Source: Polyangiaceae bacterium
GTDB taxonomy: Bacteria; Myxococcota_A; Polyangia; Polyangiales; Polyangiaceae
Reading direction: 5' to 3'
Assembly: GCA_020848455.1 (NCBI GenBank)
Contig: JADLAB010000201.1
Span: 1-32,433, forward strand
Length of the DNA: 32,433 nt
The first letter of the stretch is position 1. The number at the start of each line of letters is the position of its first letter. Both the position numbers and the translations under genes were made by a program. Under the pieces are notes generated by a model that made no database searches, was not told where the DNA came from, and saw only the letters and a program-made list of their open reading frames with translations. Of the stretch, positions 5,545 to 32,365 are shown piece after piece.

Positions 5545-7080
5545 ATGTCGGTCTCCGTGCTCCTCATCCGGCCCGATCCGGGCAACGAGCGCTTCGGCCT
5601 CGGGCCCTTCTTCCGGGTCGAGCCGCTCGGCCTCGGGTACATCGCAGCGGCGCTGCGACAGGCCGGACACGAGCCGCACGTGGTCGACGCGCGCTTCGAG
5701 TCCGGCCTCGCCCGCGTCCTCCGCCGGACGCGGCCGCGCGTCGTCGGCGTGAGCGCCCTGCACGCCCTCGAGTACGAGCGCGTGCTCGAGGTGGCGCGCG
5801 AGGTGCGGCGCCTGTCGCCCGGTTGCTTCGTGCTCGTCGGCGGTCACGCCGCGGCCGCGTTCCCCGAGCCGCTCGAGACGGACGCCGTCGACGCCATCTG
5901 CCTCGACGACGGCGAGGAGGTCGTGCCCGCGCTCGTCGACGCGCTCGAGCGCGGCACGCCACTCGCGGCGGTCCCCGCCCTCCGCCTGCGCACGCCCGAC
6001 GGCTGGGTGACGACCGCGCCGCTCGCCGAGCGCACCGGGCTCGACCGCGTGCCCTTGCCCGAGCGGCTCGGGGCGGACCGCTACCGCTCCCGCTACCACT
6101 GCCTGCTCTTCCGGCCCGTGTGGCTCGTCGAGACGGCGCGCGGCTGCCCGTTCCGCTGCAGCTTCTGCTCGGTGTGGCAGCTCTACGGTCGCTCCTTCCG
6201 CGAGCGCTCGGTGGGCGCCGTGGTCGACGACTTCGCGGCCGTCGGCGAGCACGTGTTCGTGGCCGACGATCTGTTCTGGAACCACCCGGCTCGCTCGCTC
6301 GAGCTCGCGCACGCGCTCCGCCGGCGCGGCGTGCGCAAGCGCTGGATCCTCGTCCAGAGCCGCTGCGACCTCGTGGCGCGCCATCCGGAGCTGCTCGCGG
6401 CCTGGCGCCCGCTCGCCGAGCACTTCGACGTGTTCTTCGGGCTCGAGGCGCCGACCGACGCCGGGCTCGCCGGGCTCGCCAAGGACGCGAGCCTCGACGA
6501 GACGCTCGAGGGGGTGCGGGCGGCCCGCGCCGAGCGCTTCGGCGTCACCGGGAACTTCCTCGTGGACCCGGCCTGGGGCGAGAGCGAGTTCCGGGAGCTC
6601 TGGGCCTTCGTGAAGCAGCACGGCCTCGGGCGCGCCGGCTACACGATCCTCACGCCGCTGCCCGGGACCGAGCTCTTCGAGCGCCTGCGCCCCGCGCTCG
6701 AGGGTCAGCCGTGGGCCAACTACGACATGCACCACCTGCTGTGGCGGCCGAAGCTCGGACCGGCGCGCTTCTTCGAGCTCTACGCCGAGACCTGGCGCCG
6801 CTCGGTGCTCAACCTGTCCGGCGACAAGCGCTGGCTCGACTGGGTGCGGCAGGTGCGGCCGCGCGAGATCCCGTACATCACGCGCGTGATGCTGCGCACG
6901 CAGCGGCTCATGAAGCCGCGGGCCTACCTCGCCGAGCACGAGCACGGCGCACACGCGACGCCGCTCCGCTCGGTCGACCCGGCCTGGCTGCCCGCGCCCG
7001 CGCGCGGCTCGAGCGAGCCCGACGGGGCCTCGCAGGCGCCGAGGCGTGCGCTCCCGCTCGCCGATGCGTCGCGCGACTAG
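5545..7080 (+). CDS. HpnR-like B12-binding radical SAM protein
   Basis: About 511 residues. The N-terminal third (about 1-150) has the Rossmann-like B12-binding pattern of class B radical SAM methylases (SVLLIRPDPG, EPLGLGYIAAALRQAGHEP, VVGVSALHALEYERV, FVLVGGHAAAAFPEP) without a clear DxHxxG His. The radical SAM core follows, with the [4Fe-4S] ligands Cys201, Cys205 and Cys208 in GCPFRCSFCSVWQLYGRSFR. From memory, the closest family is the hopanoid C-3 methylase HpnR, which shares the CSFCSxWxxYGRSxR block, a TPLPGTE-like segment and a late YDMHHLLWRPKLGPARFFE-like segment. The substrate may therefore be a hopanoid or another polycyclic lipid, but no hopanoid gene lies nearby, so this is inference. 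ATG 5545 is preferred over GTG 5512 because family similarity starts there. Confidence 0.85.
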   Translation: MSVSVLLIRPDPGNERFGLGPFFRVEPLGLGYIAAALRQAGHEPHVVDARFESGLARVLRRTRPRVVGVSALHALEYERVLEVAREVRRLSPGCFVLVGGHAAAAFPEPLETDAVDAICLDDGEEVVPALVDALERGTPLAAVPALRLRTPDGWVTTAPLAERTGLDRVPLPERLGADRYRSRYHCLLFRPVWLVETARGCPFRCSFCSVWQLYGRSFRERSVGAVVDDFAAVGEHVFVADDLFWNHPARSLELAHALRRRGVRKRWILVQSRCDLVARHPELLAAWRPLAEHFDVFFGLEAPTDAGLAGLAKDASLDETLEGVRAARAERFGVTGNFLVDPAWGESEFRELWAFVKQHGLGRAGYTILTPLPGTELFERLRPALEGQPWANYDMHHLLWRPKLGPARFFELYAETWRRSVLNLSGDKRWLDWVRQVRPREIPYITRVMLRTQRLMKPRAYLAEHEHGAHATPLRSVDPAWLPAPARGSSEPDGASQAPRRALPLADASRD

Positions 7081-10018: not shown

Positions 10019-12061
<2,043 letters not shown>

Positions 12062-12062
12062 C

Positions 12063-12163
12063 AGTTATCAGTTATCAGTTATCAGTTATCAGTTATCAGC
12101 TCGGCCCGCCGGGCCGCGTCTGGGGCTTGGAGCTGACAACTGATGACTGAAAACTGAAGACTG
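12063..12163. repeat. Inverted CAGTnnT heptad array between convergent genes
   Basis: Five exact tandem copies of the heptamer AGTTATC run from 12063 to 12097. After a 33-nt GC-rich middle, four degenerate heptads of the opposite orientation (CTGACAA, CTGATGA, CTGAAAA, CTGAAGA, then CTG) run to 12163. Read on their own strands, both arms are CAGTnnT repeats, exact in one arm and drifting at positions 5-6 in the other. The AT-rich array contrasts sharply with its surroundings (about 70% GC). It fills almost the whole 104-nt space between the tkt stop and the stop of the 1278-residue gene. Base pairing of the arms would make a long imperfect stem. It could serve as a bidirectional terminator, a mobile or dispersed repeat, or a slippage-prone tract. 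Confidence 0.9.
12102..12116. terminator. GC hairpin at the centre of the heptad array
   Basis: CGGCCCG-C-CGGGCCG is a perfect palindrome at the tip of the larger inverted array. Together with the heptad arms it would form a long cruciform or RNA hairpin between two convergent stop codons, where a two-way terminator is expected. No run of U follows, so terminator function is a guess from position and structure. Confidence 0.4.
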
Positions 12164-12165
12164 CT

Positions 12166-15100
12166 TCAGCGGCGCACGGTGGGGGCGGCGCTCGACGCAT
12201 CCTCGGCGTCGGTGCGGCGCGGGCGATCCGCGCCGGGCAGGGTGGGCGCCGCGTCGCTGCCTCGAGGCCTCGCCTCGGTCGGCGCCGAGGCGGACGAGGT
12301 CACCGCCTCGGTCGGCGCCGAGCCGGACGAGGTCACCGCCTCGGTCACCGCGGCCGGCAGGGTGGGTGCGACGTCGGACGGCGTGCGCGGCGCGACCATG
12401 GGCTCGGTCGGCACAGGCGCGGGGCCGGCGGCGACGGTCGGGGCGGGCGCGGGCGGCCGCGCTCCGGGTGCGGGCGGGGACGGCGTCGGCGCCGCGTGCA
12501 GATCGACGACGCCGTCCGTGAGCCGGTGCGGCGCCTGCATCGACTCGCCCGGCGGCGGCGGCAGGAGCGAAGGACCCGGCACGAGCCGCTCCGGAGCGCG
12601 GGTCGCCTCGAGCTCGGCGCTCCAGGCGTCGACCCAGTCGACCCAGCGCACGTGCTGGAGCTTGAACACGAGCTTGCGCCGATCGAGCGGTGCCGGCGCG
12701 ACCGCGATGGGCTCGCCGCGCACCTTGGGCTTGACCATCGGGTTGCGGCTGAGGCCCCGGAAGCGGTAGACGACCTCCGTGCGGTAGCCGGTGCCCGGCC
12801 ACACGAGCAGCCCCTCCTCGATGACGTCGTAGGGCGTGTCCCGCCCGATCGCCCAGGCGATCTGCTCGCGCACCAGATCGACGCCCGCGAGGTGGTACAG
12901 GCCGCCGAGCGTGTTCTCGAACACGATGCGGCCGGTCGCGTCGAGCGCGTCGAGGAAGCCGGGGTGCGCCACGCTCGCGAGGATGAGGCCGCTCTGCTCC
13001 TCGAACGCCACCTCGCAGAGCTCGGGCCCGACGCCGGGACAGGCGAGGCGCAGCCGCATGCGGTTGCTGCCGAGGTCGATGCCCGCGAGCGCGAGGGGCC
13101 CGTGGTGCCAGTCGCGCGAGGCCGCCAGCAGCGCCACGAGCTCGCGCTCGACGAAGCGCCGCACGGCGGTCTCGATCTCGTGCAGGCCCTCGCGGAACTG
13201 CCCGCGCGAGCCCTCGGAGCGGTGCGGCGCCTGGCCCAGCGTCTTCGGGCCGCGACTGGCGCGCGCCGCGTCCTCGTCCTCGCGCTGGGCCGCGCGCCGG
13301 AGGCGCACGTAGAGCTTCGGCAGGGTGCCGCTGTGGAAGCCGGGCACGAGCAGGGCGCCGACGGTCTCGCCGTGGTTGCCGACCAGGACGGGCGCGAGCT
13401 TGTCGCTGCGGCTGGCGCGGTAGAGCTTCCAGTTCTCTTTCAGCTCCCACACGATGAAGCCGAAGACACTCGGCAGGAAGAAGCCCGTGACGCCGGCGAT
13501 CGTGCCGCCGATGACCGGCCCGAGAAAGGACAGCGCCTGGTTGAAGGCTGCCAGGATGCCCGGCGTGAAGGGCACGAAGAGCTTGTGGGCGACCGTGGTG
13601 ATCGGCAGCTTGATCGGGTTGATGTAGGGCTCGATGAGCAGCGTGATGTAGAGGCGCACGACGTACGCGAAGCCGCCCCACACGAGGCCCGTCCCGCCCT
13701 TCACCCAGACCATCGCCTTGCTTTGGCCCTGCCGGAAGCGGAGCAGCTCGTCAACCTTGTACATGCCGCGGTCGAGCAGCTCCATCAGCGCCGCGAAGAA
13801 GCGCGCCACCAGGCGGAACAGGCCGGGCAAGAGGTGGTGGCTGAGCGCGCGCCAGCTCGGCGCGACCTTGTCGAAGAAGAAGTCCTCCGCGAGCTCCGCC
13901 AGGCGCGAGCTCATGACCCACGACAGGGCGACGAAGACCGCGACCGAGATCGCGATGGCGACCCATAGCGACTCGTCGCGCAGCGGCGTGAGCAGGTACA
14001 CGGGCAGGGCGATGGCGGCCGGCAGGAGCACGCGCCGGAACACGACGCGCACGACCGTGGTGCGCAGGAACCAGCGCACCGCGCGCCGGGTGATGATCCA
14101 GTGCGGCAGCTGCACGAGCCAGAAGCGCAAGAGCTTGCCGACGAGGCTCAGGCCCGCGACGACGGCCCAGCGGAACAGGCTCGAGTGGATGAGCCCGAGC
14201 GTGAAGAGCGTGAGCAGGAGGAACGAGCGCCAGTCGAGCAGGTGGAGCTCCGCCCCGCCGAACAGGTGCCAGAGCGGTCCCACGATGTGGGTCGCGCCCT
14301 CGAGCACCACGAAGGCGATCGCCGCCGGCAACAGCGCCCAGAGGACGACGTGCCGCCCGATGCGCGTGCCGAAGGAGGGCGCCGACAGGCGCTGCAGACC
14401 GCGCAGGTAGACCTCGCCCTTGCGGTAGACGCCGTCGAGCGAGACGTCGAGGATCTTGTCGAGCTTCGTGAGCGCGTCGCCGTGCCACAGCTCGCGCGCC
14501 GAGCGCATGTCCTCGAGCTTCAGCTGGTTGCGCGAGATGGCGTCGCGCAGATCGCCCAGCATGAGAAAGCCGTTCTCGACCGCGCGGTCGAGCAGCTCCT
14601 CGACGAGCTTGTCCCGGGCGTTCTCCTCCGGGCCGGAGCGCGGCTCGAGCCCGACCTCGGCGAGGGCCGCGGTGAGCTTGGGACGCAGGGACAGCCGGAC
14701 GTTGAGCTCGGCGCGCTCGGTCGCAGCGCGCAGCGCCTTGCCGAGCAGCTTGCGGTCGGGCGAGTCGATGCGCGCGTGGCGCACCTTCTTCTGCGCGGCG
14801 TGGATGTAGCGCGCCACGCGGATCTCGCGCGTCGCGGGCAGCGCGCGCACCATCGGCTGCTTGCCGAGGGAGAACAGGAAGCGCGCCATGTCGACCGCCC
14901 GCTCGGGCTTCTCGTGGGACATGGCGGCGAGCTGCAGGTCGTAGAGCAGGCGTGCCTCGACCGGGTAGCGCAGGCCGCGGTGGACCGCCGCCTCGGTCGC
15001 GAGCATGGTGAGCAGGGCGCTCCAGTCGACGTCGCCGCGAGCGAGCTTCTTCCGGTCGCCCGCCGAGAGCGGTGCGTCCCCGAGCGGCGCGAGCGCGGCG

Positions 15101-26036: not shown

Positions 26037-26042
26037 CCCGAC

Positions 26043-26071
26043 TTCGCCCTTTCGGGCGCAAGTCTCGCGGC
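26043..26071 (+). repeat. REP-like palindromic element, copy B
   Basis: A 29-nt element beginning TTCGCCC-TTTC-GGGCG and ending CTCGCGGC, 6 nt after the stop of the FGE-fold gene. It matches the element at 26147-26175 on the other strand at 24 of 29 positions and a looser copy at 16053. The hairpin CGCCC-TTTC-GGGCG (26045-26058) may also help terminate transcription. Confidence 0.65.
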
Positions 26072-26146
26072 TCCAGAGATCAGGCTTCGGACTTCAGGCA
26101 CGGCGGCTACCGCGACCCACTGTCGCCCGAAGCCGGCTAGCCCGAA

Positions 26147-26179
26147 GCCACGAGTGTTTCGCCCGAAGGGGCGAAACAC
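26147..26179 (-). repeat. REP-like element copy C, strong hairpin between convergent genes
   Basis: It contains a perfect 11-bp inverted repeat GTGTTTCGCCC-GAAG-GGGCGAAACAC (26154-26179). The element proper (26147-26175, minus strand) is the inverted mate of copy B, about 75 nt away. It lies between the stop of the FGE-fold gene and the stop of the nucleotidase gene (26203), so it is well placed to act as a two-way terminator, although there is no U-tract. A partial further copy (CGCCCGAAGCC) is at about 26124. Confidence 0.7.
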
Positions 26180-26202
26180 GAGTCTGACTCGACCTGCGGC
26201 GG

Positions 26203-32218: not shown

Positions 32219-32365
32219 GGGTCGCCCGGGGGCAGGGGCATGCGGCTCGGCGCCGCGTGGGCCCCGCCCCCGACTCGCGCTGCGGCGCGGAGAGGGTCGC
32301 CCGGGAGCAGGGGCATGCGGCTCGGCGCCGCGTGGGCCCCGCCCCCGACTCGCGCTGCGGCGCGG
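32219..32365. repeat. 75-bp tandem repeat with internal hairpins
   Basis: Two copies with a 75-bp period (32219-32290 and 32294-32365) that differ at one base (CCCGGGGG versus CCCGGGAG). Each contains a strong stem: GGGGC..GCGGC-TCGGC-GCCGC..GCCCC. It begins 13 nt after the hydrolase stop, so it may act as a double terminator. A 75-nt period is a multiple of three, so open frames run through it, but none has a ribosome binding site or sensible composition. Confidence 0.88.

Follow-up and report, generated by a model that had tools for sequence, protein, structure and literature searches.

Inverted arrays of a CAGTNNT heptad beside stop codons in a Polyangiaceae bacterium, other phyla and phages

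The heptad element and its setting

The window, the whole stretch of 32,433 nucleotides analysed here, carries an inverted array of the heptad CAGTNNT. Two genes face each other there with their stop codons 104 nt apart, and the array occupies 102 nt of this gap. The genes on either side and the parts of the element are listed in Table 1. The TGA stop codon of the transketolase gene (12059-12061) adjoins the left arm, and the stop codon of the 1278-aa gene (12166-12168) lies 2 nt past the right arm. An earlier note on this DNA had described five perfect heptads followed by four degenerate ones of the opposite orientation between two stop codons, and this description was borne out; its AGTTATC units, counted from 12063, are the same array in another phase. 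The right arm is CTGACAACTGATGACTGAAAACTGAAGACTG, four CAGTNNT units plus CAG in reverse complement, where NN, read on the minus strand, is CT, TT, CA and TG. The centre had been called a perfect GC palindrome, which is true of its 6-bp arms but not of the GCC between them, which is unpaired. The left arm contains no plus-strand stop codon in any frame.

Table 1. Features of the heptad locus in the window
Feature	Position	Strand	Basis
Transketolase gene	10019..12061	+	Pfam PF00456/PF02779/PF22613; codon-usage gene caller
Left arm, 5x CAGTTAT	12062..12096	+	Sequence reading; TRF; junction count
CAGCT joint	12097..12101	+	Complementary to AGCTG 12131-12135; paired in RNA fold
GC palindrome CGGCCC-GCC-GGGCCG, element centre	12102..12116	.	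Sequence reading
Right arm, 4x CAGTNNT in reverse complement	12133..12163	-	Sequence reading; TRF; junction count
Whole inverted heptad element	12062..12163	.	One long hairpin, either strand (RNA folding)
Convergent gene, 1278 aa	12166..16002	-	Gene caller; no family match in Pfam search

The array in the window is not a chance occurrence, because the left arm scores a 100% match with TRF, all nine CAGTNNTCAG/CTGANNACTG junctions of the 32,433 bases lie within the element, and the element folded as RNA reaches -56.7 kcal/mol against a mean of -27.9 for shuffled sequences (z -9.0). The other strand folds to -53.4 kcal/mol (z -9.7). Terminator-like sites were absent from 11900-12350, where the hairpin is present and a U-tract is absent, and Rfam gave no match above the gathering score in the window. 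In the absence of a U-tract the element is therefore not an intrinsic terminator, and the suggestion of the earlier note that it acts as a bidirectional terminator could not be upheld. Two long tandem repeats were also detected with TRF, one with a 33-nt unit inside the called convergent gene (12271-12346) and one with a 75-nt unit at the right end of the window (32219-32365).

Copies, placement and turnover within the genus

The element is dispersed in the genome from which the window derives (G000; a draft of 9.2 Mb in 742 contigs, 96.5% complete), as the earlier note had proposed. A four-unit pattern gave 67 matches (41+26) against 0+2 for the reversed-pattern control, and a three-unit pattern gave 135 (77+58) against 0+3; all the four-unit matches and 100 of the three-unit matches were fetched for analysis. 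The outcomes that the earlier note held against its own proposal, a single copy or no enrichment between genes, did not appear when looked for genome-wide.

The sites follow a recurrent anatomy: a stop codon is followed by (G)AAGTNNT and further CAGTNNT units, then come the centre, CTGANNA units and ACTTC, and the facing stop codon closes the gap. The outermost unit is AGTNNT, the leading C not being required; at positions -6 to -4 of 64 arm ends the frequencies are 0.64 for A, 0.86 for G and 0.69 for T, and the same outer-end pattern is seen at 211 arm ends from other phyla and at 31 from a single phage. The centre often contains GGCCCTGCGGGCC, to which the centre palindrome of the window element is related; this sequence, on one strand or the other, is shared by unrelated sites, being present in 11 of 37 gaps with arrays and in none of 108 gaps of 60 bp or longer that lack them. 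The 42 clusters with at least three junctions comprise 25 with a plus arm followed by a minus arm, seven with only plus and eight with only minus units, one of the order +-+ and one +-+-; none opens with a minus arm and closes with a plus arm. Two-arm elements of up to 260 nt fold strongly, 18 of 20 having z below -2 (median -6). Read forward, a CAGTNNT unit is free of stop codons in all frames unless NN is AA, AG or GA; read backward, the TGA of its core falls in every frame.

Neighbouring units are identical more often (0.318) than expected (0.208). Identity of NN between left and right arms is no higher than between elements (p 0.155 in G000 and 0.30 in the congener, G001); across phyla it is 0.254 against 0.087, a difference confounded by genome-level NN preferences. 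Mutual homogenisation of the two arms within a genome is thus unsupported, and the two arms behave independently. The claim of the earlier note that one arm is freshly homogenised is made plausible by the neighbour identity, but there is no ancestor from which homogenisation could be timed. One locus is represented by two contig ends of G000 (L060 and L079; 96% identity over 587 bp) in which the heptad arms differ, probably as strain variants in the assembly; L060, the second assembly, was excluded from the unit-identity, outer-end consensus, cluster and fold counts.

Placement relative to genes was assessed with a codon-usage caller trained on the fetched regions, for gaps between two called genes with at least three junctions, omitting arrays at contig edges (L060, L067, L070, L074) and those partly in called genes (L088, L093). 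The 38 array gaps comprise 21 convergent, 15 tandem and two divergent gaps, as against nine, 58 and 41, respectively, among the 108 gaps of these regions that are 60 bp or longer and carry no array (odds ratio for convergent gaps 13.6, Fisher p 9e-9). The preference for convergent 3' ends put forward in the earlier note therefore holds within this genome, but not in other phyla (see below). Among 68 outer arms, 48 face the 3' end of a gene, and 47 of these 48 lie within 30 bp of the stop codon (median 7 bp). The possibility that a stop codon is embedded in the first unit (TAGTNNTCAG) was rejected, TAG accounting for 10 of 47 array-adjacent stops and 37 of 180 others.

The congener (a draft, 86% complete) gave 9+5 matches to the four-unit pattern. 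Its genes corresponding to those flanking the gap in the window align at about 95% identity, and the gap between them, of about 200 bp, holds no CAGTNNT junction; instead, opposed arms built of an 8-nt unit (ACACGGAGGCACGAAGGCACGGAG ... CTCCGTGTCTCCGCGTCTCTGTGG) are present there. Site pairs for a wider comparison were those fetched in both genomes, which are biased to arrays in both, together with 22 of 25 further G000 sites that were located in G001. Both flanks were resolved at 28 G000 sites, which leave out L068, L069, L083, L093 and L094. Heptad junctions are present in both species at 15 of the 28; at three (L086, L078, L061) the congener has degenerate units or none, and at three (the window, L087, L071) it has an octad-type (CACGGAG) array instead. 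At the other seven the element is absent from the congener, where the facing stop codons may be as little as 3-7 bp apart: 324 bp in G000 against 3 bp in G001 (L058/L327), 240 against 7 bp (L079/L336) and 131 against 7 bp (L095/L333). The element is therefore dispensable at least at these seven sites. In the reverse direction, nine of ten G001 sites were located in G000, six of them shared, two empty (L264, L278) and one degenerate (L276). With absences in both directions, turnover goes both ways, and it is fast.

Shared sites also differ, unit number varying between the species. At L064/L281 the arms are kept and the whole centre is exchanged, and where G000 has a single element at L066/L279, G001 has two, separated by a gene of about 1.7 kb; by reading of its sequence this gene resembles a sensor kinase or response regulator. 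Empty sites often retain a fragment of the outer end, such as TAGAGAAG in G000 (L264/L341) and CTGACAACT in G001 (L085/L317). Such remnants would be compatible with deletion, gain and loss being inseparable without an outgroup. Target-site duplications, a criterion for MITEs, were found at none of eight filled/empty pairs by exact matching, which short or mutated duplications could escape.

Octad arrays, too, are scattered through G000, with 17+14 matches at up to two mismatches and 0+0 for the control. Its opposed element, CCACGGAG...CTCCGTGG, is of fairly constant sequence (L296-L314 in G000; L239, about 6130-6240, in the congener), and the 17 gaps that hold it in 20 fetched regions comprise eight convergent, eight tandem and one divergent. 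A third inverted type (ATCAGGCTTC... / ...GCCCGAAGCC) occupies a convergent gap at 26037-26202 of the window.

Occurrence in other phyla and in phages

The distribution of the element is very patchy within the phylum. In the family and order, the four-unit pattern was found in two of 59 genomes, G000 and its congener, and in none of the 57 others. A phylum-wide draw gave 10 of 377 genomes, G000 included, and only two besides G000 have high copy numbers, G218 (12+11) and G274 (31+7). The pattern is absent from five further genomes of the genus of G218.

A scan of genome contigs across phyla for opposed three-unit arms with a centre of 10-40 nt gave at least 118 stretches. Record titles among the matches listed include Chloroflexi, Planctomycetota, Acidobacteria, Verrucomicrobia, Bacteroidetes, Alpha-, Gamma- and Deltaproteobacteria, Lentisphaerae, Omnitrophota and Poribacteria. 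In 86 elements from 80 listed loci NN takes nearly all values, the core being fixed by the search pattern. Two flanking called genes allowed 70 of the 86 to be classified, the 16 at contig edges being omitted; 58 lie in tandem, eight in convergent and four in divergent gaps, and none was scored within a gene. Convergent gaps are not enriched in this set (8/70, p 0.32). The idea that the elements generally prefer convergent gaps was therefore rejected, such a bias being a trait of this genus. Elements between co-directional genes are nearer to the stop codon in 43 cases and to the start codon in 15 (p 3e-4), and divergent gaps are depleted (4/70 against 34/187, p 0.01). The general rule is therefore a position beside a stop codon.

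In viral contigs, the opposed pattern was found in 34 stretches, while four-unit arrays in direct orientation numbered at least 120. The arm order in viral loci is one-sided, with 176 cases of plus then minus and none of the opposite. Two types of phage are densely occupied. Type A is IMGVR_UViG_3300025409_000011 (36.6 kb; L364, L375, L376), whose gene and array layout recurs in 3300038427_000181 (L366, L380, L388, L390); its genes include a Mu-type transposase, an AAA transposition protein, terminase, a Mu portal, a Mu-like protease, and head and tail genes. Arrays occur in nine of the 13 co-directional gaps of at least 35 bp in IMGVR_UViG_3300025409_000011, as compact hairpins with NN letters peculiar to each. 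Type B comprises 3300025506_000008, 3300038416_000315 and relatives (loci L367, L359, L436, L360, L373, L379, L402, L417, L435, L447 and L448) and encodes a portal-MuF fusion, terminase and tape measure; its transposase falls in the same PHROG as that of type A. Its arrays were seen in nearly all gaps, interspersed with AAAGGC hexamer runs. In five phage contigs, heptad junctions are present in 45 of 51 co-directional gaps of at least 35 bp, and one of a total of 65 clusters lies within a called gene; these counts are not fully independent because contigs 3300038416 and 3300044824 overlap as relatives.

The transposases and terminases of the two types have no similarity in BLASTP, so that two lineages or more must have evolved or picked up dense arrays separately. 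A phage protein common to both as the heptad factor was considered and rejected, a comparison of 37 type A with 67 type B proteins giving one weak BLASTP match (E 1e-4). As a control for array density, two named transposable phages were examined, Leptolyngbya phage Lsp-JY19 and Alteromonadaceae phage B23 (L502, L503); in each there is a single junction, and clusters are absent. A Mu-like prophage as the present vector was likewise rejected, Portal_Mu (PF06074) being absent from G000, G001, G218 and G274; it was found in four of 18 genomes searched, one of which is the array carrier G190.

A relative of type B (L421; tape measure 63% identical) was compared with L402 at five orthologous gaps. 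Arrays are kept with different sequence in three, one gap is array-free in both, and one heptad gap of L402, in L421 between the genes for 145-aa and 255-aa proteins, holds a GTAGGGGCGG...CCGCCCCTAC hairpin in L421. Different inverted-array families thus replace one another in a single gap, at three bacterial sites and in one phage gap.

Interpretation and relation to known systems

The reading that we tentatively favour, though with some reserve, is that of a dispersing non-autonomous palindromic element which is kept as a bidirectional RNA hairpin at the 3' ends of genes, the hairpin function and the mechanism being what we infer. The element, two opposed arrays of an AGTNNTC unit (written here CAGTNNT), would be retained because it gives both convergent genes a transcript with a strong hairpin at its end; being palindromic, the hairpin could serve from either side. 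The hairpin may cap mRNA 3' ends against 3'-5' decay and may block read-through into the opposing gene. Slippage would account for the turnover of units, each arm changing on its own; a putative copying activity would seed new sites, and copies would be lost through deletion of the hairpin or overwritten by other inverted-array families.

The strongest argument for hairpin function is the replacement of one family by another in the same gap, as if the hairpin were kept and not the letters. The saturated gaps of the compact phage genomes point the same way, and the placement beside stop codons, the convergent enrichment in G000, the single arm order, the strong folding, the turnover between the two species and the shared centre palindrome also speak for the favoured reading. 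Against it stand the seven empty orthologous sites and the very patchy occurrence, which is odd for a general device of gene expression, as well as the missing U-tract and the lack of convergent enrichment outside the genus and of a mobilising enzyme. The core is constant across phyla, NN is free and the arms are unmatched within a genome, and a sequence-specific step is therefore needed somewhere. No candidate for this step was found, Y1/RAYT and the Mu-type portal both being absent from G000 and G001. The Y1/RAYT transposase (PF01797), present in 16 of 39 genomes searched, has no match in either draft (96.5% and 86% complete), which rules against RAYT mobilisation and leaves the trans-acting enzyme suggested in the earlier note without a candidate.

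A wider version of the favoured reading, possible but rather unlikely, would make the element a cross-phylum punctuation of gene boundaries. Unrelated lineages of transposable phages would carry it after almost every gene, bacterial chromosomes would gain and swap it at 3' ends along with further inverted-array families that can stand in for it (CACGGAG octads, GTAGGGGCGG-type hairpins), and a putative sequence-specific factor would read the AGT..T core and copy or process the element.

Among the alternatives, a selfish or neutral dispersed repeat is a possibility to be taken seriously, if still a doubtful one. CAGTNNT palindromes would be copied sequence-specifically and survive only where harmless, just past stop codons, the hairpin being a by-product of copying. 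The constant core with free NN, the array-free close relatives (57 in the family and order, five in the genus of G218), and the presence and absence between sister species in both directions are all in its favour, and tolerance at gene ends alone suits the seven empty sites. By itself, however, it leaves unexplained both the takeover of one gap by another hairpin family and the near-saturation of compact phage gaps, and it has to contend with eight sites lacking target duplication and with the want of a transposase candidate.

It is improbable that the arrays are recombination joints, whose repeated homology would allow the exchange, insertion or deletion of entire genes and would explain their position at gene boundaries in bacteria and transposable phages. 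The gene between two elements at L066/L279, the wholesale swap of a centre between conserved arms at L064/L281 and the arrays at nearly all phage gene boundaries would fit such a role; however, gene exchange was seen at just one of the 28 compared sites, 7-nt units with drifting NN offer little exact homology, and a strict inverted order is not predicted. More improbable still is an array bound by an RNA- or DNA-binding regulator (S1, Csp or Csr), which the available text of MacGregor (2015, PMC4679880) proposes for direct TAACTGA arrays upstream of start codons. A fixed core with free NN does resemble a recognition motif, but the arrays described here are inverted and lie past stops rather than before starts, no binding protein was identified, and phages of types A and B have one weak protein match in common. 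A local product of replication slippage with no wider meaning, suggested by the period of seven and the identical left-arm units, is hardly credible, being contradicted by the 67 four-unit matches against two in the control, by the opposed arms and by the recurrence across phyla.

Literature searches, in which subscription journals were little covered so that absence is unproven, found no description of CAGTNNT arrays in opposed orientation, whether at 3' ends, between convergent genes or in phages, or of the swapping of array families; nor was anything found on the literal repeat strings and their peptides. The TAACTGA heptad, a 2015 oddity of direct repeats without a known spreading mechanism, is recast by these data as a single arm of a palindrome that sits at gene ends. 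Within one genus, the heptad element and other hairpin families take each other's place in a given gap. The combination of dense elements and few genes in the phages makes a CAGTNNT-reading factor and an effect on transcripts directly searchable, and the question of why distant phyla have the same heptad becomes testable.

Several known systems bear a resemblance to the element. Bidirectional intrinsic terminators and inverted pairs of uptake sequences are inverted short motifs that form a hairpin just past stop codons; the element differs from them in its tandem 7-nt units, its dozens of copies and the absence of a U-tract. Like REP, BIME and REPIN sequences, in the accessible part of their description (PMC3733652), it is short, dispersed, palindromic, extragenic, hairpin-forming and non-autonomous, and as a dispersed extragenic palindrome it agrees with the definition of REP/REPIN; unlike them, it is built of tandem heptads and occurs in two genomes lacking the RAYT/Y1 transposase. 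The heptameric long simple sequence repeats of Mrazek et al. (2007), as far as they are summarised in PMC4679880, are direct arrays with sequences differing by species. They have in common with the element intergenic arrays of period seven and slippage-like change in unit number, and differ from it in that here one core recurs across phyla, inverted.

The same heptad makes up the TAACTGA repeat, which is known from marine Beggiatoaceae, from Cyanobacteria and from some Bacteroidetes (MacGregor 2015, PMC4679880). In the available portion of that report, 169 sets are direct and one indirect, most lie just upstream of start codons, horizontal transfer is suggested with a spreading mechanism not known, and the occurrence of TGA in every frame is noted; an excerpt on the Thiomargarita genome gives 1175 occurrences of the heptad (PMC4853749). 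On the minus strand the left arm of the window element is TAACTGA in tandem, and both kinds of repeat, as far as PMC4679880 could be consulted, are intergenic and patchy across phyla, with no known spreading mechanism. The arrays described here differ from those direct repeats before starts in having opposed arms around a centre, a position after stops and a degenerate CAGTNNT core. Thus, the heptad itself is already known as TAACTGA (MacGregor 2015), and three things appear to be new: a palindromic element built from it at 3' ends, the exchange of this element for other inverted arrays, and its use by two lineages of transposable phages at almost all of their gene boundaries.
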